Assembly (NCBI GenBank): GCA_024398105.1
Contig: JAKSJP010000027.1
Coordinates: forward strand, 1-34,881
Direction of reading: 5' to 3'
DNA length: 34,881 bases
DNA from: Bacteroidales bacterium
Lineage (GTDB): Bacteria > Bacteroidota > Bacteroidia > Bacteroidales > UBA932
Made by a program: the position numbers and the translations under genes
The notes under the pieces: model-generated
What the model was told of the DNA's origin: nothing
Seen by the model: only the letters and a program-made list of their open reading frames with translations
Databases searched by the model: none
Part shown: positions 15,501 to 28,237 of the stretch, piece by piece
How the letters are laid out: the number at the start of each line of letters is the position of its first letter
Numbering within the stretch: the first letter of the stretch is position 1

Positions 15501-17288
15501 ATGAAAGACATATTATCATCCTGGTTCAACCAGCCTCAGACAGGGCTTTCATTGTGGTTCATGGCAATTTTCACCCTCGTGTTCGCATGCGGTGCGGTCT
15601 ACGGAAGCGGTTACATGAAACACTACAGCGGAAGGCCCCTCAGGAACACCCTGCATTGGATCAACTACGCCGTCGCCTATGTCTCAATGATGGCATTGTG
15701 CGTAGTTCAGAATTCGATCGCGTTCCTCGTCAGCTGGGAAATCATGGCACTCAGTTCCTTCTTCCTCGTTATCTACGAGAGCGAAAAGCCGGAGACAATC
15801 AAGGCCGGCATCAATTTCTTCGTACAGTCACACATTTCTGTGATACTCCTTACCGCAGGCTTCATGATGATCGGAGTCAGGACAGGATCGTACTCATTCA
15901 GTGAAATCCCACGCTACTGCGCAGAGAACAACGGCATGGCAGCATTCCTGCTGCTTTTCGCCGGTTTCGCTGTAAAGGCAGGTTTCGTGCCGTTCCACAC
16001 CTGGCTGCCTTATGCGCATCCAGCCGCTCCTGCCCACATCTCAGGCGTCATGTCCGGAGTCATCATCAAGATCGGTATCTTCGGAATCCTCCGTATGATC
16101 ACCCTCTTCACCGTTGACTTCACGACTGCAGGCGTCATCATCCTGGCCGTGGCTGCAATATCCGGCCTCTATGGTGTGATGATGGCTATCCTTCAGCACA
16201 ATCTCAAGAAGCTGCTTGCCTACCATAGTATCGAGAACATCGGTATAATCGGAATGGGCATTGGTCTAGGCTGCATCGGCGTAGGTTCAGGAAACAGCAC
16301 GCTCGCAAGCCTCGGCTTTGCCGGAGCACTGCTGCATACGCTCAACCACGCTCTCTTCAAGTCAGTCCTTTTCTTCTGCTCAGGAAACGTCTATCACGGC
16401 ACCCACACGCTCAACGTCGAAAGACTTGGCGGACTTGCCAAGAAGATGCCATGGACAGCGGCTCTTTTCCTTATCGCATCTGTAGCGATCTGCGGACTGC
16501 CACCTATGAACGGCTTCATCTCGGAGTTCGTCATCTACAGCGGACTCTTCGGATGGATGCAGGGCGCTGACCTCAGCGCGACCACAGGTGCAGTGTTCTC
16601 GATCCTTGCACTCGTGATGATAGGCGGACTCGCCATCCTCTGCTTCACCAAAGCGTTCGGAATCATCTTCCTTGGAACTCCAAGGACTGAAGTCGAAGCC
16701 CATGAGATGGAAGCCTGCCGCATCGTGCCATTAGCAATCGAAGCGCTTATCATGCTTTCAATCGGTATCTTCCCTGCTTTCTATGCAAAACTTGCGGGCA
16801 ACGCCCTTGAGTGCTTCCCATACGCTGACAGCGCAGCGCTCGGCAGCGTGACCGACCTCAGCATCGTCGGTATCGCAAGCCTTGTGTTCCTCGCAATTGC
16901 CGCCTTCATCTATTTCGCGAAGAGCGGAGTCAACAGGAAACGTCAGGTCAGCGAAGGACCGACATGGGGCTGCGGCTACACCGAAGGTACTGCCAGGATC
17001 CAGTACACAGCGACTTCTTTCGTAAAGACATACGTCCAGCTATTCTCCTTCGTCCTTGGCACAAAGAAAGAGGAAAAACGTCCTGTGGAGATATTCCCTG
17101 CCTCAGGCCACTTCGAGTCCGAATCCTACGACAAGCTGGAGAACGCTCTGATCGACAAGCCTCTTGGACTATACCGCAGATTCACGGACATGTTCTCTTT
17201 CCTCCAGAACGGAAAGATGCAGTTCTATGTGCTCTACGGCATCATCTTCATTATCTGCACACTTATCATAACCTTCATATCCTGCTAG
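15501..17288 (+). CDS. Ehr complex antiporter-like subunit, HyfB/NuoL type
   Basis: A 595-residue integral membrane protein of the proton-conducting NuoL/M/N-HyfB superfamily, first gene of a six-gene complex. About 15 membrane segments are visible. Family marks are SWEIMALSSFFLVIYE, KAGFVPFHTWLPYAHPAAPAHISG (lysine of the channel), KKLLAYHSIENIGII, LHTLNHALFKSVLFFCSGNVYHGT, CGLPPMNGFISEFVIYSG, and the HyfB-type tail TWGCGYTEGTARIQYTATSF. The start is the ATG at 15501. The frame is open back to a TTG at 15477 but that codon lies within the TACCTTTG promoter. The next gene begins 5 bases after the stop. It should move protons or sodium across the inner membrane. Confidence 0.92.
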   Translation: MKDILSSWFNQPQTGLSLWFMAIFTLVFACGAVYGSGYMKHYSGRPLRNTLHWINYAVAYVSMMALCVVQNSIAFLVSWEIMALSSFFLVIYESEKPETIKAGINFFVQSHISVILLTAGFMMIGVRTGSYSFSEIPRYCAENNGMAAFLLLFAGFAVKAGFVPFHTWLPYAHPAAPAHISGVMSGVIIKIGIFGILRMITLFTVDFTTAGVIILAVAAISGLYGVMMAILQHNLKKLLAYHSIENIGIIGMGIGLGCIGVGSGNSTLASLGFAGALLHTLNHALFKSVLFFCSGNVYHGTHTLNVERLGGLAKKMPWTAALFLIASVAICGLPPMNGFISEFVIYSGLFGWMQGADLSATTGAVFSILALVMIGGLAILCFTKAFGIIFLGTPRTEVEAHEMEACRIVPLAIEALIMLSIGIFPAFYAKLAGNALECFPYADSAALGSVTDLSIVGIASLVFLAIAAFIYFAKSGVNRKRQVSEGPTWGCGYTEGTARIQYTATSFVKTYVQLFSFVLGTKKEEKRPVEIFPASGHFESESYDKLENALIDKPLGLYRRFTDMFSFLQNGKMQFYVLYGIIFIICTLIITFISC

Positions 17289-17293
17289 CGCCA

Positions 17294-18199
17294 TGACAAG
17301 TCTGATTCTAATTCTCATCTCAGCCTTATTCTTCAACGGCATCATCGGCCGTGTCAAGAGCATCTGCGCAGGCAGAAAAGGTCCAGGCATCATGCAGCCT
17401 GTATTCGACGTCGCCAGACTTCTCAGAAAGGGCAGCGTCTACAGCGAGACCACCGGTCCTGTCTTCAAGATCGCACCCGCAGTCTACCTTGCATCTGTCA
17501 TCGTCGCATGCCTCTGCGTGCCATTCGGCAACAAGGCCGGCCTCATAAGCTTCAACGGCGACTTCGTATTCTTCGCCTACGCTCTTGCGCTCGGCAAGTT
17601 CTTCTGCATCATCGGAGCGCTTGACACCGGTTCAAGCTTCGAGGGCATGGGTGCTTCGCGTGAGGCAACCTACTCAATGCTCGCCGAGCCGGCATTTTTC
17701 CTGATCATGGGATCTCTCGCGCTCATGACAGGCCATACCTCTTTCGAGAGCATCTTCGCAGACCTTCACCCAAGCAGCCCTATGAGCTGGGCCCTGGCGG
17801 TCATCGCAGCGTTCATATTCCTGATACTTGCCATGGTCGAGAACAGCCGTATGCCTGTGGATGACCCTAAGACCCACCTTGAACTTACCATGATCCATGA
17901 AGTCATGGTACTGGACAACAGCGGCGTCGACCTCGGTCTGATATTCGTGACAGGCTTCCTCAAGTTCGCCATGTACGCTGCTCTCATTGCAAACCTGCTC
18001 ATCGGCAGCATCCCTGTCGGTTTCGGAATTCCTGTATTCTTCGCAGTACAGTTCGTATCGGCTGTCATCATCGGCATCAACGAGTCATTCACCGCACGAT
18101 TCAGGATGAACCATAACCCTCAGTTCATATTCACTTTGGCTTGCATCGCTCTTCTCGCCGTATTCGGCGTGATGCTTATGTCAGGACAACTTATCTAAG
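17294..18199 (+). CDS. Ehr complex membrane anchor, HyfC/HycD/NuoH type
   Basis: A 301-residue membrane protein of the NuoH/HycD family that joins the membrane arm to the peripheral subunits. Marks are the cytoplasmic N-terminal loop GRKGPGIMQPVFDVARLLRKGSVYSE, then ALGKFFCIIGALDTGSSFEGMGASREATYSMLAEP, and MVENSRMPVDDPKTHLELTMIHEVMVLDNSG, which contains the acidic cluster of the quinone or connector channel. About eight membrane segments. The start is the ATG in GCC-ATG-ACAAGTC just after the upstream stop, and the stop precedes the HyfE-like gene by a few bases. In complex I and group 4 hydrogenases this subunit sits under the proximal cluster, so its conservation here while that cluster is lost is noteworthy. 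Exact boundaries within one or two bases are uncertain. Confidence 0.92.
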
Positions 18200-18204
18200 G
18201 AAAT

Positions 18205-18834
18205 ATGCTGGAAACATTCATTATCATATTCCTCGCTACCCTGTTCTATCTGGCGATCGCCAATAGAATGAGGAACTACATCAAGCTCCTCGTATACCAG
18301 GGTCTGCTGCTTTTCCTGGTGGCAGCGTTCCACCTCAAGGATTTCAACATCTTCAATCTGATCGTCATTCTCCTTGAGACCATAGTTTTCAAGGCCGTAG
18401 CGGTCCCATACTGCATCGAGAGGATCATCCGTCACAACGGCATCACCCGTGAGACAGAGCCGTTCCTGCCAAACTTCGTATCGCTTCTGATCACAGTGGG
18501 CATCGTAGTGGCTTCGATCCTTCTTTCCGGCAGCATCGACGACATCATCCTCGACAAGTTCTTCTTCGTAGGAGCTGTCTCAGCGATCTTCACCGGCCTC
18601 TATCTGATTGTCTCACGCCGTAAGATCCTCACCCATGTGGTCGGCTACTGTGTAATCGAGAACGGTGTCTTCATCCTTTCTCTCGCAGTAGGAAACGAGA
18701 TGCCTGCCATGGTGAACCTCGGTGTGATGCTTGACATCTTCGCATCAGTACTTATCCTAGGAATATTCGCTAACAAGATCGGAGACGTCTTCCATGACGT
18801 CGACATCGACGCTCTCAGCGGACTTAAAGACTAA
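18205..18834 (+). CDS. Ehr complex membrane subunit, HyfE type
   Basis: A 209-residue membrane protein like HyfE, whose C-terminal part is related to NuoK. About six membrane segments. VAAFHLKDFNIFNLIVILLETIVFKAVAVPYCIERIIRH has the conserved glutamate-lysine pair of this family, and VVGYCVIENGVFILSLAVG holds the NuoK-like buried glutamate. It ends in a cytoplasmic tail IGDVFHDVDIDALSGLKD. It begins a few bases after the HyfC-like stop and is followed after five bases by the HyfF-like gene. HyfE-like subunits are found in formate-hydrogenlyase-type group 4 complexes, so this points to the Hyf/Hyc branch as the ancestor. Confidence 0.88.
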   Translation: MLETFIIIFLATLFYLAIANRMRNYIKLLVYQGLLLFLVAAFHLKDFNIFNLIVILLETIVFKAVAVPYCIERIIRHNGITRETEPFLPNFVSLLITVGIVVASILLSGSIDDIILDKFFFVGAVSAIFTGLYLIVSRRKILTHVVGYCVIENGVFILSLAVGNEMPAMVNLGVMLDIFASVLILGIFANKIGDVFHDVDIDALSGLKD

Positions 18835-18839
18835 ATGCC

Positions 18840-20261
18840 ATGATTACAGCAATTTACCTCGCAGCAGTCGTCTGCATCGTCATCGGTCTGGCATTCAGCC
18901 GCTCAACAGTCCTCTCAGACATACTCGGAGTACTTTTCCTCGGAGTCCAGACCATGCTTACGGTCCATGGACTGATGAACCCGGGCCTCACTGAACTGAA
19001 CTATTTCAGCTTCGACGCGCTTGGACTCATCCTTCTCCTGACATTGAGCATCATCAGCTATCCGGCCCTGATCCACAGCCGCATATATCTTTCAAAGCCA
19101 AAGGCGACAGCTTCAAGCGCCGCTGCATACAACGCATCATGCGTACTTCTCATCGCAGCGATGACTATGGGCTATCTTGCAAACCATGCAGCAGTGACCT
19201 GGATCTTCACAGAGATCACCACACTCAGTGCCGCGATCCTTATCTATCACCACAGAAGCAAGCTTGCTCTCGAGGCGACATGGAAATATGTCTTCGTATG
19301 TGCGATCAGCATCTGCTTCGTGTTCGTGGGAATCCTCTTCATAAGCCTTGCGCTGCTCCATGACGGCTGCTCAGAGCTTTTCTACTCTGACCTCATGGCG
19401 CACACATCGACACTCAACGGATTCTGGATGACACTCGGCTTCATCTTCATCTTTGCAGGATACACAGCGAAGCTCGGACTCTTCCCTATGTTCACAGCCG
19501 GAGTTGACGCCAAGGACAAGGCCCCTGCACCGGCCGGTGCCCTCCTTGCAAGTGCACTGATGAATCTCGGATTCTGCGGAATCTTCAGGATCTACGCGTC
19601 GATCAACGGCACGCCTGTCGGAAACTGGGCACGTATGCTCATGCTCGTCACTGCGATCCTGACACTCTTCATCGCGACCATCTACATGGCAAGGATCAGC
19701 AATGTGAAGCGTATGCTCGCCTACTCCGGTATCGAGCACATGTCAGTCGTAACAATAGGTCTTTGCTTCGGAAAAGCCGGTTTCATCGCAGCCATGCTCC
19801 ACATGGTCATGCATACCTTCGTGAAGTCAGGCCTTTTCTTCCATTTCACGCAGATCTGGCGCACTTATTCGAGCAAGATGCTCGATGACATGGGTGACTA
19901 TCTCAAGCTCAATCCATTCGGTGCTCTCGTGCTTCTTTTCGGATTCATCAGCATCGCTGCAGTTCCGCCATCAGGTCTCTTCTTCAGCGAGCTTCTCGTA
20001 TTCAAGGCAATGATTGCAGAAGGCAGCTGGGTAGTATTCGCAATATCTGCATTCCTGCTCACAGTGCTTCTCTGGGCATTTGCCAGAAGCATGTTCCGCA
20101 TCATCTTCCTTCCTGCAGCAAAGCCAGTCGAAAAGATCAGCATCTCAGCATGGGAATCAGTTACCCAGCTCATCCTTTTCGCACTCGCTGCCTACATCGG
20201 ATTCAACCCACCTGCATTCCTGCTTGACTTCATCGAGCAGGCAGCAACAATGATTTCGTAA
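18840..20261 (+). CDS. Ehr complex antiporter-like subunit, HyfF/NuoN type
   Basis: A 473-residue membrane protein of the NuoL/M/N superfamily, the second antiporter-like subunit. Marks are NHAAVTWIFTEITTLSAAILIYHH, GYTAKLGLFPMFTAGVDAKDKAPAPAGALLASALM, RISNVKRMLAYSGIEHMSVV, MHTFVKSGLFFHFTQIWRTY and AAVPPSGLFFSELLVFKAM. About 14 membrane segments. The expected buried Glu and Lys residues of the pumping path are present. It lies between the HyfE-like and large-subunit genes with gaps of about five bases on each side, so all are cotranscribed. Two antiporter-like subunits suggest more than one ion moved per cycle. Confidence 0.92.
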   Translation: MITAIYLAAVVCIVIGLAFSRSTVLSDILGVLFLGVQTMLTVHGLMNPGLTELNYFSFDALGLILLLTLSIISYPALIHSRIYLSKPKATASSAAAYNASCVLLIAAMTMGYLANHAAVTWIFTEITTLSAAILIYHHRSKLALEATWKYVFVCAISICFVFVGILFISLALLHDGCSELFYSDLMAHTSTLNGFWMTLGFIFIFAGYTAKLGLFPMFTAGVDAKDKAPAPAGALLASALMNLGFCGIFRIYASINGTPVGNWARMLMLVTAILTLFIATIYMARISNVKRMLAYSGIEHMSVVTIGLCFGKAGFIAAMLHMVMHTFVKSGLFFHFTQIWRTYSSKMLDDMGDYLKLNPFGALVLLFGFISIAAVPPSGLFFSELLVFKAMIAEGSWVVFAISAFLLTVLLWAFARSMFRIIFLPAAKPVEKISISAWESVTQLILFALAAYIGFNPPAFLLDFIEQAATMIS

Positions 20262-20265
20262 CGTC

Positions 20266-21744
20266 ATGGACAACAAAGTATTAAATATCAAGAACGGAAG
20301 CTGTGTGAAAGTATCGGAGATACCGGTGCTCAGCTATGACTGCTTCCGTGCCACCACCCTTGAGCTCATGAGCGACAAGGCAAGGCATTGTTCAAGCTAC
20401 TTCGCATATCCATGTGCCGAAGGGCTGAGGCTCATGATGTGTATCGCTGACGACACTGCACACGACATCAAAGTCTTCGCATGCGATGTAAACAAAGGCG
20501 ATAGCCTTGTCTCTGCAGCCAAGGACTGTCTTGCACTCGAGCGCTACGAACGTGAGATCCACGAGAACTGGGGACTCGAGTTCGAGGAGCATCCATGGTA
20601 CAAGCCGGTACGCGATTTCATGCCCGGAAAATACAAGTTCTTCGAGATGGAAGGCGAAGAGCTCCATGAGGTCGGTGTAGGCCCTGTCCATGCCGGAGTG
20701 ATCGAGCCAGGTCATTTCCGCTTCATCTGCAACGGCGAGGACGTGCTTCACCTCGAGATCCAGCTCGGCTGGCAGCACAGAGGTGTCGAGCATCTGATGC
20801 TCAGCAAGAAACGTACGATCGAGCGTGTACTGCTCGCAGAAGGAATCGCAGGAGACACATCAGTAAGCCATTCGACCGCATTTGCAGGCGTATGGGAGGC
20901 GCTCTGCGGCATCCAGCCTGACAAGAGCGTTCTCTGGGCAAGGACCCTTGCTGCAGAACTCGAGCGCATGGCCAACCATACCGGTGACCTCGGCGCTATC
21001 TGCGGTGACGTGGCATATCAGCTCGGAGCAGCCGTCTACGGACGTCTCCGCACACCAATCGTCAACTTCTCGCAGCGCTGGTGCGGCAACCGTCTCGGCA
21101 AAGGCAATGTCCGCCCTGCATACGCACCGTACGCATTCACCGAAGAACTCAGACAGCAGCTCCTGAGCGACCTCAAGGCATATGAGCGTGACTTCCTCGA
21201 GATGAGTGACAAGATCCAGCATTTCCCTGGCGTCCTTTCCCGTCTTGACCGTACTGGAATCGTCACCACAGAACAGGCAGAGTCTATCGGAGCAGTTGGA
21301 ATGGCAGCCAAATGTGCAGGTGTATGCCGTGACACACGAGCATCGCATCCATACGGAGTATATGGTACCATGGACATAAAGCCGGTCGTCAAGGACACAG
21401 GCGACGTCCTGGCAAGGACCGAACTCCGCATCGACGAGGTCAAGCAGTCACTCGCCATCGTCCGTACCCTGCTTGAGGACATGCCGGCATTCAACACTCA
21501 GGTACGTCCTATGGGCGAGCCTATGGCTGATTGCTTCGCCATCTCACTTACAGAGGGCTGGCGCGGAGAAATCTGCCACTGCGCTGTCACAGACGCAGAC
21601 GGAGAGCTCGCCGCGTACAAGATCAAGGATCCGTCATTCCACAACTGGATGGCGCTTGCACTTGCAGTGCGTGGCAACGAGATCTCAGACTTCCCTATCT
21701 GTAACAAAAGCTTCAATCTGTCCTATTGTGGACACGACCTTTAA
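20266..21744 (+). CDS. Ehr complex large subunit, HyfG-like (NuoC-NuoD fusion) without NiFe ligands
   Basis: A 492-residue soluble subunit. Residues 1-125 are the NuoC-like domain (ALERYEREIHENWGLEFEEHPW). The rest is the NuoD/HycE-like domain (VGPVHAGVIEPGHFRF, EIQLGWQHRGVEHLM, LAAELERMANHTGDLGAI). In [NiFe] hydrogenases of this group the metal is held by RVCGIC before the conserved His and by DPCxxC at the end. Here the equivalent sites are Ala195 and Thr198 (IAGDTSVSH) and Ser486 and Gly489 (SFNLSYCGHDL), so none of the four cysteines is kept. A single Cys488 is shifted by two. There is no C-terminal extension for maturation cleavage. It therefore should not make or use hydrogen. The natural reaction is unknown; quinone- or ferredoxin-linked or conformational roles are open. 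Confidence 0.93.
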   Translation: MDNKVLNIKNGSCVKVSEIPVLSYDCFRATTLELMSDKARHCSSYFAYPCAEGLRLMMCIADDTAHDIKVFACDVNKGDSLVSAAKDCLALERYEREIHENWGLEFEEHPWYKPVRDFMPGKYKFFEMEGEELHEVGVGPVHAGVIEPGHFRFICNGEDVLHLEIQLGWQHRGVEHLMLSKKRTIERVLLAEGIAGDTSVSHSTAFAGVWEALCGIQPDKSVLWARTLAAELERMANHTGDLGAICGDVAYQLGAAVYGRLRTPIVNFSQRWCGNRLGKGNVRPAYAPYAFTEELRQQLLSDLKAYERDFLEMSDKIQHFPGVLSRLDRTGIVTTEQAESIGAVGMAAKCAGVCRDTRASHPYGVYGTMDIKPVVKDTGDVLARTELRIDEVKQSLAIVRTLLEDMPAFNTQVRPMGEPMADCFAISLTEGWRGEICHCAVTDADGELAAYKIKDPSFHNWMALALAVRGNEISDFPICNKSFNLSYCGHDL

Positions 21745-21755
21745 TCGAACCAGAA

Positions 21756-22502
21756 ATGTTTAAGAACCTCAAGATATTCCTCCATCAGGGCAAGCAGTTC
21801 ATTCCTGACGTACGTACTGCAAAGGCTCCAGGCGTATTCCGTGGCCGCCCTGTGATCTCAACAGAAGCTGTTGATGAGAAAGCATTCGCAGATACTTGTC
21901 CGAGCGGTGCGATAGGTACTTCTCCTGTCAGCATTGACCTTGGAAAGTGCCTTTTCTGCGGAGAATGCGAAAGATGTTTCCCGAACAAGGTCCACTTCAC
22001 AGACGACACACACCTCGCTACCAACGTACGCGAGAGACTTATCATCCGCGAGGGTGAGGACAAGCCTATCGAAGTCGACAAGGATGCAGTCCGTCCTGAG
22101 ATCCGCGGCATCTTCAGCAGGTCTCTGAAGCTCAGGCAGGTATCTGCAGGAGGTGACGCAAGCTGCGAGGCGGAGCTCAACGCCACAGGTAACGTACAGT
22201 TCGACCTCGGACGCTACGGTATCGAGTTCGCGGCATCGCCAAGACACGCCGACGGTGTGCTTATCACAGGCCCTATATCAGCAAATATGGCCAAGGCGCT
22301 GGAGCTTACATATGAAGCGTGCCCTGAACCTAGAATCGTGGTTCTTGACGGCACTGACGCCATCAGCGGAGGCATGTTCGCAGGTTCTCCAGACCTTGAC
22401 CGTTCATTCCTGGACAATCACCAGGTTGACCTTTACATTCCAGGCAACCCGGCGCATCCACTTACCGTAATCAACGGAATCCTTGACCTTACAAGGAAGT
22501 AG
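21756..22502 (+). CDS. Ehr complex fused ferredoxin-small subunit (HyfH-HyfI type)
   Basis: A 248-residue fusion. Residues about 25-85 are a polyferredoxin domain like HyfH/NuoI. TCPSGAI (Cys48) and CLFCGECERC (Cys65, 68, 71, 74) would hold one [4Fe-4S] cluster, while the first CxxCxxC is absent, so the second cluster is lost. Residues about 120-248 are the NuoB/HycG-type small subunit: FDLGRYGIEFAASPRHADGVLITG, PEPRIVVLDGTDAISGGMFAG, VDLYIPGNPAHP. Of the four proximal-cluster cysteines only Cys137 stays; the others are Asp134, Asp201 and Asn231. The start at 21756 (MFKNLKIF) follows the large-subunit stop by 11 bases. A start at 21726 would overlap that gene. The stop lies in a hairpin shared with the convergent GH5-like gene. 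Confidence 0.9.
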   Translation: MFKNLKIFLHQGKQFIPDVRTAKAPGVFRGRPVISTEAVDEKAFADTCPSGAIGTSPVSIDLGKCLFCGECERCFPNKVHFTDDTHLATNVRERLIIREGEDKPIEVDKDAVRPEIRGIFSRSLKLRQVSAGGDASCEAELNATGNVQFDLGRYGIEFAASPRHADGVLITGPISANMAKALELTYEACPEPRIVVLDGTDAISGGMFAGSPDLDRSFLDNHQVDLYIPGNPAHPLTVINGILDLTRK

Positions 22503-27565: not shown

Positions 27566-28237
27566 CTACTCCTCGCGTGTCACGATGAGGATGACACCGT
27601 TTGCACCTCTGGAACCGTATGCTACGGTCTCCGATGCATCCTTGAGGATAGTGACGCTCTTGACTGCATCCTGCGGAATATCACTGAGGCTTCCCATGAA
27701 CGGAATGCCGTCAAGTACAATGAGGGGCTGCTCACTCGCAGTGAGAGACTTCTGGCCGCGGATGATGATGTCGATCTGGTCGCCAGGCCTGGCCTCACCT
27801 ATCCTGACTCCGGGGATCCTGCCACGCAGAGCCGAGATGACGTCGGCCTCCTGGACCTGCTGGAGGTCCGCGCCGGAGATACGGGTGACAGAACCTAGGA
27901 TCTGGCTTTTCTTCCTCTTGCCATAGGCAATGTCCTCAGTGTCCCTTGCCATCACGATCTTATATACAGACTTCTTGCTGACCTTGGTCTCGATGGTCGA
28001 GAAACCCGAGCCTACGAAACGGATGACATTCTTCGCAGGTACGGAGATATCGAATCCTCCGTCGACATCGGTCGTTCCTAGAAGATACTCACCTGTATAT
28101 ACGAAGACGCCAGGAATTGCCTCACCGGCTTCATCCGAGACGATACCTTTGACATTTACGTGCTGAGCGAATGCTGAGATCTGTATCAGCAGAGCTGTGG
28201 CAGAGACTGCAAATAATCTTTTAAGACTGCGTATCAT
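27566..28237 (-). CDS. Plug-only SusC-like protein (carboxypeptidase-regulatory plus TonB plug domains)
   Basis: A 223-residue exported protein (signal ending ISAFAQ). Residues about 27-100 are a carboxypeptidase-regulatory-like beta sandwich (VNVKGIVSDEAGEAIPGVFVYTGEYLLGTTDVDGGFDI). Residues about 105-220 are the SusC-type plug (RISGADLQQVQEADVISALRGRIPGVRI, DIIIRGQKSL, PLIVLDGIPF, AVKSVTILKDASETVAYGSRGANGVILIVT). The frame then stops cleanly, so the whole 22-strand barrel is missing and only 56 bases separate it from GH95, leaving no room for a decayed barrel. It is first in the glycosidase operon. It may be a free plug that acts with a barrel elsewhere, a periplasmic binding protein, or a truncated SusC. 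Confidence 0.86.
   Translation of the reverse strand: MIRSLKRLFAVSATALLIQISAFAQHVNVKGIVSDEAGEAIPGVFVYTGEYLLGTTDVDGGFDISVPAKNVIRFVGSGFSTIETKVSKKSVYKIVMARDTEDIAYGKRKKSQILGSVTRISGADLQQVQEADVISALRGRIPGVRIGEARPGDQIDIIIRGQKSLTASEQPLIVLDGIPFMGSLSDIPQDAVKSVTILKDASETVAYGSRGANGVILIVTREE

Follow-up and report, generated by a model that had tools for sequence, protein, structure and literature searches.

We analysed contig JAKSJP010000027.1 of assembly GCA_024398105.1 (Bacteroidales bacterium), a complete contig of a 2.43 Mb assembly that is 91.8% complete; the full 34,881-nt contig is referred to below as the window. Six tightly packed plus-strand genes at 15501-22502 encode a membrane complex of the energy-converting-hydrogenase-related (Ehr) kind, which groups with a large clade of Ehr complexes whose proximal iron-sulfur cluster appears, as judged from alignments, to have been exchanged for acidic and amide residues. 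The first-pass annotation of this DNA had described six contiguous genes in the Hyf order, HyfB, C, E, F, G and a HyfH-HyfI fusion, and the list of open reading frames (ORFs) together with family searches supported that description, all six ORFs matching the families named:

15501..17288, plus strand: HyfB-like (NuoL/M-type) antiporter-like membrane subunit, 595 aa (PF00361, E=3.7e-56)
17293..18198, plus strand: HyfC/NuoH-like membrane subunit with an acid-rich coupling loop, 301 aa (PF00146, 1.6e-35)
18205..18834, plus strand: HyfE-like membrane subunit, 209 aa (PF00420, 1.5e-05, slightly below the gathering score; NCBIfam hydrogenase 4 membrane subunit NF008556, 1.3e-19)
18840..20261, plus strand: HyfF-like antiporter-like membrane subunit, 473 aa (PF00361, 1.6e-39)
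20266..21744, plus strand: NuoD/HyfG-like large subunit (EhrL) without nickel-iron (NiFe) ligands, 492 aa (PF00346, 2e-31)
21756..22502, plus strand, ORF open from TTG 21726: fusion of a HyfH-like ferredoxin and a NuoB/HyfI-like subunit (EhrS) (PF01058, 3e-18)

The first five genes are spaced 4-6 bases apart. The sixth would overlap the fifth if begun at TTG 21726, and lies 11 bases after the large-subunit stop if begun at ATG 21756. Because relatives begin their last gene at a Met equivalent to ATG 21756, this ATG is the likely start and TTG 21726 probably is not; residue numbers of the fusion subunit are counted from TTG 21726. Of the antiporter and membrane types, only Hyf-type B, C, E and F were identified among the six genes. 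The initial statement that all membrane subunits look intact proved slightly too strong, since roughly 65-70 N-terminal residues of E. coli HyfB (about two helices) have no counterpart in the HyfB-like protein. The same shortening was found, in an untrimmed comparison, in L137, L061, L065 and, start-codon uncertainty aside, L046.

Alignment of the NuoB-like half of the fusion subunit to MbhJ (6cfw_J) revealed that one of the four proximal-cluster cysteines is left, the positions reading D144, C147, D211 and N241. The ferredoxin half lacks the ligand set of the outer cluster. The sites are listed below with their counts in a tree of 94 Ehr complexes, of which 47 rows (C-form) keep all four proximal cysteines and 47 (D-form) do not:

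22155..22166, plus strand: D144 and C147 at the first two proximal-cluster Cys positions (Asp144 in 45/47 D-form rows; Cys147 in 36/47)
22356..22358, plus strand: D211 at the third proximal-cluster Cys position (Asp in 44/47 D-form rows)
22446..22448, plus strand: N241 at the fourth proximal-cluster Cys position (Asn in 42/47 D-form rows)
21897..21968, plus strand: C58 and C75-x-x-C78-x-x-C81, full ligand set of one [4Fe-4S] cluster, medial and N6b-like by motif topology (94/94 tree rows; 39/39 additional rows, 33 being distinct from those of the tree)

The medial/outer assignment uses the cysteine sharing known for 2[4Fe-4S] ferredoxins, and for the N6a/N6b names we assume the usage of Thermus Nqo9. 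Alignments of the eight-cysteine Ehr ferredoxin of L088 to HycF, NuoI and MbhN support the correspondence. By a column-based count, the outer ferredoxin cluster is complete in 26/47 C-form vs 1/47 D-form rows, and in 46/47 D-form rows the medial cluster stands without both neighbours of the normal wire. The residue at position 147 varies among C, A, V, D, H and Y in the D-form tree rows, with S, G, Q and N also present in further rows, and the near-constant part of the replaced proximal site is the carboxylate pair only. The first-pass annotation had reported the loss of most of the proximal cluster and of half the ferredoxin. Both are indeed missing; the proximal cysteines, however, are not simply lost but replaced by near-fixed Asp/Asp/Asn, and the ferredoxin shows no random half loss, exactly one cluster being complete in every row.

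Relatives were collected by a profile scan of genome contigs with a 20-sequence large-subunit alignment; at least 587 stretches matched, at least 575 of them encoding a relative, and the best 80 of these at least 575 were kept, so that the set leans towards the window's relatives. Among the matches listed, the nearest named relative by large subunit is 'Candidatus Cryptobacteroides caccocaballi' (L046, Bacteroidales), at 85%, which makes the source a probable Cryptobacteroides-like bacterium within Bacteroidales. On contigs of sufficient length the order B-C-E-F-G-fusion recurs, apart from cases such as L094, which has only the large and fusion subunits; the loci that show it bear the labels Bacteroidetes, Planctomycetes, Myxococcales, Desulfobacterales, Acidobacteria, Melainabacteria, Spirochaetes, Verrucomicrobia and Geobacter/Geomonas. 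Two HyfB-like genes in tandem were observed in L047, L048, L050, L052, L053, L056, L057, L059, L060 and L071, as in Geomonas L092; the L071 contig lacks a fusion subunit.

For the tree, the large and fusion subunits of the window were taken together with those of 93 loci, and E. coli HyfG/HyfI and NuoCD/NuoB served as outgroups; the tree includes Geomonas L092 and Geobacter L115, Geobacter sulfurreducens itself being left out. The 94 Ehr rows split from E. coli Hyf and Nuo at an ultrafast bootstrap (UFBoot) of 100, with two outgroup rows only. The placement of the complex among Ehr systems without NiFe ligands, and away from E. coli Hyf, thus held for the large and fusion subunits. No pair among the tree rows is ≥97% identical in the fusion subunit. 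All 47 rows that have lost the CCCC tetrad form a single clade, with a UFBoot of 92 including the basal Cytophagales L070 and 100 without it; L004, which adjoins the clade, keeps CCCC. Within the clade the tetrads are DCDN (35 rows), DADN (3), DVEA (2) and DYDN, ADDN, EHDN, DDHS, DVDN, DCDA and DVDA (1 each). L070 has no proximal ligands but retains all eight ferredoxin cysteines, which suggests that the proximal site was probably lost first. The named members are Bacteroidota, save for L074, which is labelled Phycisphaerae. That sequence lies deep among the Bacteroidales Ehr sequences and is either mis-binned or transferred.

A further 39 fusion subunits, of which 33 are distinct from the tree rows, all read D.[DE]N at the proximal site and keep the medial CCCC. 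The form that the first-pass annotation had regarded as extreme is therefore not a one-off. As far as alignment and tree can tell, the proximal cluster is exchanged for a near-fixed Asp/Asp/Asn in one Ehr clade that is almost solely Bacteroidota. No description of proximal-cluster loss in Ehr was found in the papers reached by searches of open-licence PubMed Central.

We compared the two forms by seeking sites that are ≥85% conserved within each group yet carry a different residue, using 47 vs 47 rows for the large and fusion subunits and, as C-form/D-form rows, 32/24 for HyfB, 34/29 for HyfC, 35/30 for HyfE and 35/40 for HyfF. Among the 247 columns of the fusion subunit, the only such sites are C to D144, C to D211 and C to N241. 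The chance that three random columns of 247 all fall in the four ligand positions is 1.6e-06, a figure that ignores relatedness and serves as a guide only. By the same criterion, no site was found in the large subunit, HyfB, HyfC or HyfE.

The best PDB match of the large subunit is HycE of the E. coli formate hydrogenlyase (FHL; 7z0s_E, 7.2e-38), and alignment to this protein placed the following features:

20848..20859, plus strand: A195-G196-D197-T198 at the place of the first NiFe CxxC (D197 in 94/94 rows)
21703..21738, plus strand: N480-K481-S482 ... S486-Y487-C488-G489-H490-D491, Ehr pocket signature at the place of the second NiFe CxxC (N480, K481, S482, S486, Y487, G489 and D491 each in 94/94 rows)
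20704..20706, plus strand: Glu147, aligned to HycE Glu193 in the beta1-beta2 coupling loop (chain residue 205 of 7z0s_E; tag offset of 12 inferred)

Both NiFe CxxC motifs of HycE/HyfG are gone, their places reading AGDT (195-198) and SYCG (486-489). Eight pocket residues (D197, N480, K481, S482, S486, Y487, G489 and D491) are invariant across all Ehr rows of both forms, while E. coli HyfG has just S482, Y487 and D491. This difference suggests that the old metal site was rebuilt as a specific polar pocket, with or without the adjoining cluster, and the invariance across both forms suggests that the role of the pocket outlived the cluster. The residues expected to couple the peripheral and membrane arms are likewise retained. 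Glu147 is present in 45/47 C-form and 47/47 D-form rows; its counterpart, HycE Glu193, is described in PMC9474812 as a proton-carrying residue on the beta1-beta2 loop. In the HyfC coupling loop, E183, R186, D191, H195, E197, H202, E203 and D208 are each found in 63/63 rows, and the HyfB residues conserved at ≥95% in both forms (32 C-form and 24 D-form rows) include E80, K159, K190, K236, E245, H279, H283, K287 and E342. Two aromatic residues of the large subunit, Y251 and W272, are fixed in the D-form and variable in the C-form.

In agreement with the first-pass annotation, the complex is not a hydrogenase: AGDT and SYCG stand in place of the CxxC motifs, and neither HypD nor an FeFe hydrogenase was found in its own assembly. 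For HypD (PF01924), the only Hyp protein sought, the control search was positive in 4/14 genomes. The earlier remark that maturation genes and formate dehydrogenase are missing nearby is borne out to the extent that the assembly has no HypD match and that a Pfam scan of 20 window neighbours, which left three without a family, showed no formate dehydrogenase. Complex I was rejected as an identity, the full set of N2 cysteines being absent and no NuoE/F/G lying among the six genes; in the rows shown, the NCBIfam NuoB/NuoD models score under their own curated cut-offs, and their names on the subunits hence indicate family membership only. A polysulfide reductase of the MBS type was also rejected, since it has a three-cysteine proximal cluster and the window has one Cys (C147) at the four positions.

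The window's own genome gave one large-subunit match and one fusion/NuoB-type match, which likewise speaks against complex I. It also contains two PF03116 (NQR2/RnfD) genes (C45:57594-58553 and C23:36542-37525), and thus probably has other ion pumps. Members of the genus often have complex I in its place: of the 19 same-genus genomes listed, 10 gave 25-27% large-subunit matches to open frames of 544-581 aa, and in the two opened genus-mates (G402 and G367) the frame is NuoCD, part of a true NuoA-N operon of ten genes; the 19 kb read contained no match to NuoE/F/G. A complex I operon of ten genes is present in L141, L142 and L143, from two relatives in the same genus and one in the same family; the stretch read shows no NuoE/F/G, and the window's genome has the Ehr complex only.

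Given the number of lost ligands and the shortened HyfB, we considered whether the locus is a decaying relic or an assembly error. Against L046, dN/dS (nonsynonymous to synonymous substitution ratio, NG86) is 0.080 for B, 0.072 for C, 0.049 for E, 0.069 for F and 0.073 for G; the estimate covers five genes, the L046 contig ending before the fusion subunit. The same state occurs throughout the 47-row clade, which contains no near-duplicates, and in the 33 further distinct rows; these rows include a RefSeq record, Ancylomarina sp. 16SWW S1-10-2 (L072), not titled as a metagenome-assembled genome. These row counts and low ratios refute a relic, pseudogene or sequencing error, to which we give next to no credence.

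The question of which Bacteroidales keep the system was addressed at two levels. Within the window's family, a large-subunit match above 430 bits was found in 21/199 sampled genomes, with fragments only in G322, G333 and G431. Within the order, the fusion subunit was detected at E≤1e-40 in 67/295 sampled genomes, the window's own included, and all 30 fusion subunits read (its own and 29 of the 66 others; 37 unread) are of the D-form. We searched for HyfC and the fusion subunit in 12 family genomes, namely seven opened genomes without a membrane-subunit gene near the large subunit and five unopened ones of the same genus. A close HyfC was found in 10/12 and a close fusion subunit in 10/12, with both together in 9/12 (G301, G302, G314, G319, G350, G364, G376, G410 and G458). 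In-frame stops interrupt the HyfC matches of G364 (partial) and G376 and the fusion match of G364; G421 has HyfC only, G388 the fusion subunit only, and G441 (62% complete) neither. Broken-up operons, in which the large subunit stands alone or with the fusion subunit, were observed in L128, L129, L130, L132, L133, L134 and L078, and the missing parts were located elsewhere in most of the genomes searched, a search that left out L078. A soluble form without a membrane arm, to which the lone large subunits of L128, L129 and L132 might point, was rejected, HyfC-like and fusion genes lying elsewhere in those genomes.

Based on these results, we favour, with somewhat less than even confidence, an ion-translocating D-form Ehr complex in which the pocket would work without an adjacent electron relay and the stranded medial cluster would be a redox gate or a structural element. 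The six subunits would assemble, and protons or cations would cross the membrane. The pocket of D197, NKS and SYxGxD may bind or turn over a small polar ligand, and this event, rather than an electron from the proximal cluster, would shift the Glu147 loop and the HyfC loop and so drive the membrane arm, or would itself be driven by the membrane arm. The Asp pair would preserve negative charge at the former site of an anionic cluster, possibly with a divalent cation or a proton bound to it. The medial cluster, invariant but stranded, may act as a redox gate that senses ferredoxin or oxidants, or may be structural. This reading is supported by the equal constraint on the pocket and the coupling apparatus in both forms, with the adjoining cluster exchanged, and by the co-retention of HyfC and the fusion subunit in 9/12 family genomes, though apart from the large subunit in the opened cases.

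Once the proximal step is removed, a gap of probably over 20 Å would be left. The medial cluster should then lie beyond the ordinary tunnelling range of the pocket, so that the pocket's job would be independent of electrons from the proximal site; in FHL, every step of the relay is <14 Å (PMC9474812). The same distances bear on the possibility that the complex is still an oxidoreductase, with electrons entering at the medial cluster and reaching the pocket or another acceptor through a proximal cluster not ligated by cysteines or by aromatic hopping over Y251 and W272. The strongest point for such a route is the medial cluster itself, whose N6b-like ligands are kept in all 94 tree rows and the 33 further distinct ones; the survival of C147 in most D-form rows, the fixation of Y251 and W272 in the D-form, and the redox proposals published for cluster-bearing Ehr (PMC6349859 and PMC7894505) point the same way. 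Three of the four proximal ligands, however, are non-thiolate and the fourth is variable, and without the proximal step the gap would be longer than any in the FHL relay. We therefore consider a remaining oxidoreductase somewhat unlikely.

The surroundings of the operons are relevant to two further explanations. A PtsN-like gene (HTH_17 and PTS_EIIA_2) lies near the first antiporter-like gene of C-form Ehr operons in 13 loci (L079, L082, L088, L092, L096, L097, L101, L102, L104, L107, L115, L117 and L121; four checked with Pfam), and in nine of the 13 its end is ≤5 bases from, or overlaps, the first operon gene. Among loci with enough upstream DNA, it is found in 11/25 of the C-form vs 0/21 of the D-form. 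EIIA-Ntr acts in potassium homeostasis, and the gene may tie C-form Ehr to control by the phosphotransferase system or by potassium. If the complex were a plain Mrp-like secondary cation/proton antiporter, the peripheral arm would serve as a cap, either structural or redox-sensing, with no turnover in the pocket. The two Mrp/NuoL-M-type subunits with conserved Lys, Glu and His and the PtsN-like regulator of the C-form operons are in accordance with this explanation; an inert cap, however, is not expected to hold eight pocket positions at 94/94, and the regulator is missing near the D-form operons, which makes such an antiporter unlikely. The polar pocket of Asp, Lys, Asn and Ser where NiFe was could alternatively host vectorial non-redox chemistry (hydration or decarboxylation, for instance) along the lines of DAB, which couples a NuoL-like subunit to CO2 hydration. 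No operon partner is common to the D-form loci, and we regard this explanation as highly improbable.

Several observations weigh against the ion-translocating complex with a relay-free pocket. The invariant four-cysteine medial set argues that electrons still matter somewhere, and the survival of C147 in 36/47 D-form rows makes a cluster with unusual ligands compatible with the sequence. A new mononuclear metal site built from D/C/D/N was rejected: position 4 has changed to Ala in four Alistipes-type rows and to Ser in another row, and position 1 is Ala in L068, which lends no support to a strict new metal site. HyfF (18840-20261) carries three conserved-but-different sites, Y79H, A244G and G374A, the sole ones besides the cluster ligands, and the window's HyfB is shortened at its N terminus. 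When 1245 neighbour ORFs were clustered, no partner gene outside the core occurred in more than 6 D-form or unassigned loci, and none of the neighbours connects the D-form with a ligand or an ion. In addition, PMC12342949 (2025), PMC10432482 and PMC10284858 describe Ehr as a complex of unknown function, complexes of formate dehydrogenase and Ehr have been proposed in some lineages (PMC6349859), and Geobacter Ehr subunits were more abundant on formate, with a formate dehydrogenase link suggested (PMC7894505).

How ion movement is coupled to peripheral-arm redox chemistry is an unsettled question for complex I and related complexes. The D-form represents a natural cut of the electron wire beside the pocket, with the pocket, coupling loops and channels left untouched, and a comparison of the cluster-bearing and Asp forms separates the needs of coupling from the needs of redox. 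The fusion subunit recurs in 67/295 sampled genomes of the order, with all 30 that were read being of the D-form. A bolder version, which we hold more tentatively, would be a complex-I-superfamily machine that is no longer electron-run at its core: the carboxylate pair would have been exchanged in one event, ligand binding or non-redox turnover in the pocket would drive or be driven by ion movement, and the medial cluster would serve as a redox gate. If so, the complex may be powered otherwise than by ordinary electron flow. All of these findings can be reconciled with the initial proposal, in which a redox or conformational input may be coupled to the movement of ions.

The genes flanking the six-gene set lie on the opposite strand and are unrelated by Pfam scan, with a DUF6057 protein upstream and a GH5-type glycoside hydrolase downstream, followed by GH43, GH95 and a TonB plug fragment. 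The fragment, a TonB-dependent receptor ORF at window positions 27566-28237, has only the plug domain left (223 aa) and, near GH95/GH43/GH5, possibly belongs to a cut-short polysaccharide locus. Across the D-form and unassigned loci, no immediate neighbour is common to more than 3. The commonest neighbour family of the D-form and unassigned loci is an ABC-type ATPase (cluster 7), present in six loci at varied distances; a gene that we take to be RsmE-like lies upstream in L087, L093 and L095, and a sulfate-permease-family gene (one confirmed by Pfam) lies downstream in L068, L069 and L140.

When compared with known systems, the complex resembles Mrp antiporters in its antiporter-like membrane subunits and differs from them in having HyfC, large-subunit and ferredoxin/NuoB parts. 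To complex I it is related by family membership (NuoB, D, H, I and antiporter-like subunits), but it lacks the ligand set of cluster N2 and the NuoCD Tyr that aligns to G196, and its operon contains no NuoE/F/G. E. coli hydrogenase-4 and FHL (Hyf/Hyc) share its gene types and order, provide the best PDB match and have the Glu193 equivalent; unlike them, the window form has no NiFe cysteines, no proximal cluster, one ferredoxin-domain cluster instead of two, and no HyfA-, HyfD- or HyfJ-type gene among its six. In MBH, MBS and complex I, the proximal cluster is an electron donor or catalyst, as stated in PMC7684303. MBS/Mbx of Pyrococcus furiosus belongs to the same superfamily and likewise has no NiFe; MBS pumps ions and has a chamber bounded by three coupling loops, and polysulfide reduction is proposed to be catalysed by its proximal cluster, which is ligated by three Cys (same paper). 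With one Cys only at the proximal site, the window form cannot work as MBS does. The closest likeness is to the Ehr complex (EhrA-D, L, S) that PMC7894505 names in Geobacter sulfurreducens (GSU0739-45). The subunit types and order agree, the large subunit lacks the four NiFe cysteines, Hyf-like membrane subunits share one operon with the large and small subunits (two B genes in several, e.g. L092), and in the tree the window falls with Ehr-type sequences of Geobacteraceae and is separated from Hyf and Nuo. Where the other 47 Ehr rows read CCCC, however, the window reads DCDN; its clade has mostly Asp/Asp/Asn at the proximal cluster and has lost the outer ferredoxin cluster in 46/47 rows. With one cluster remaining, this clade appears to be a new form within the already known Ehr complexes.

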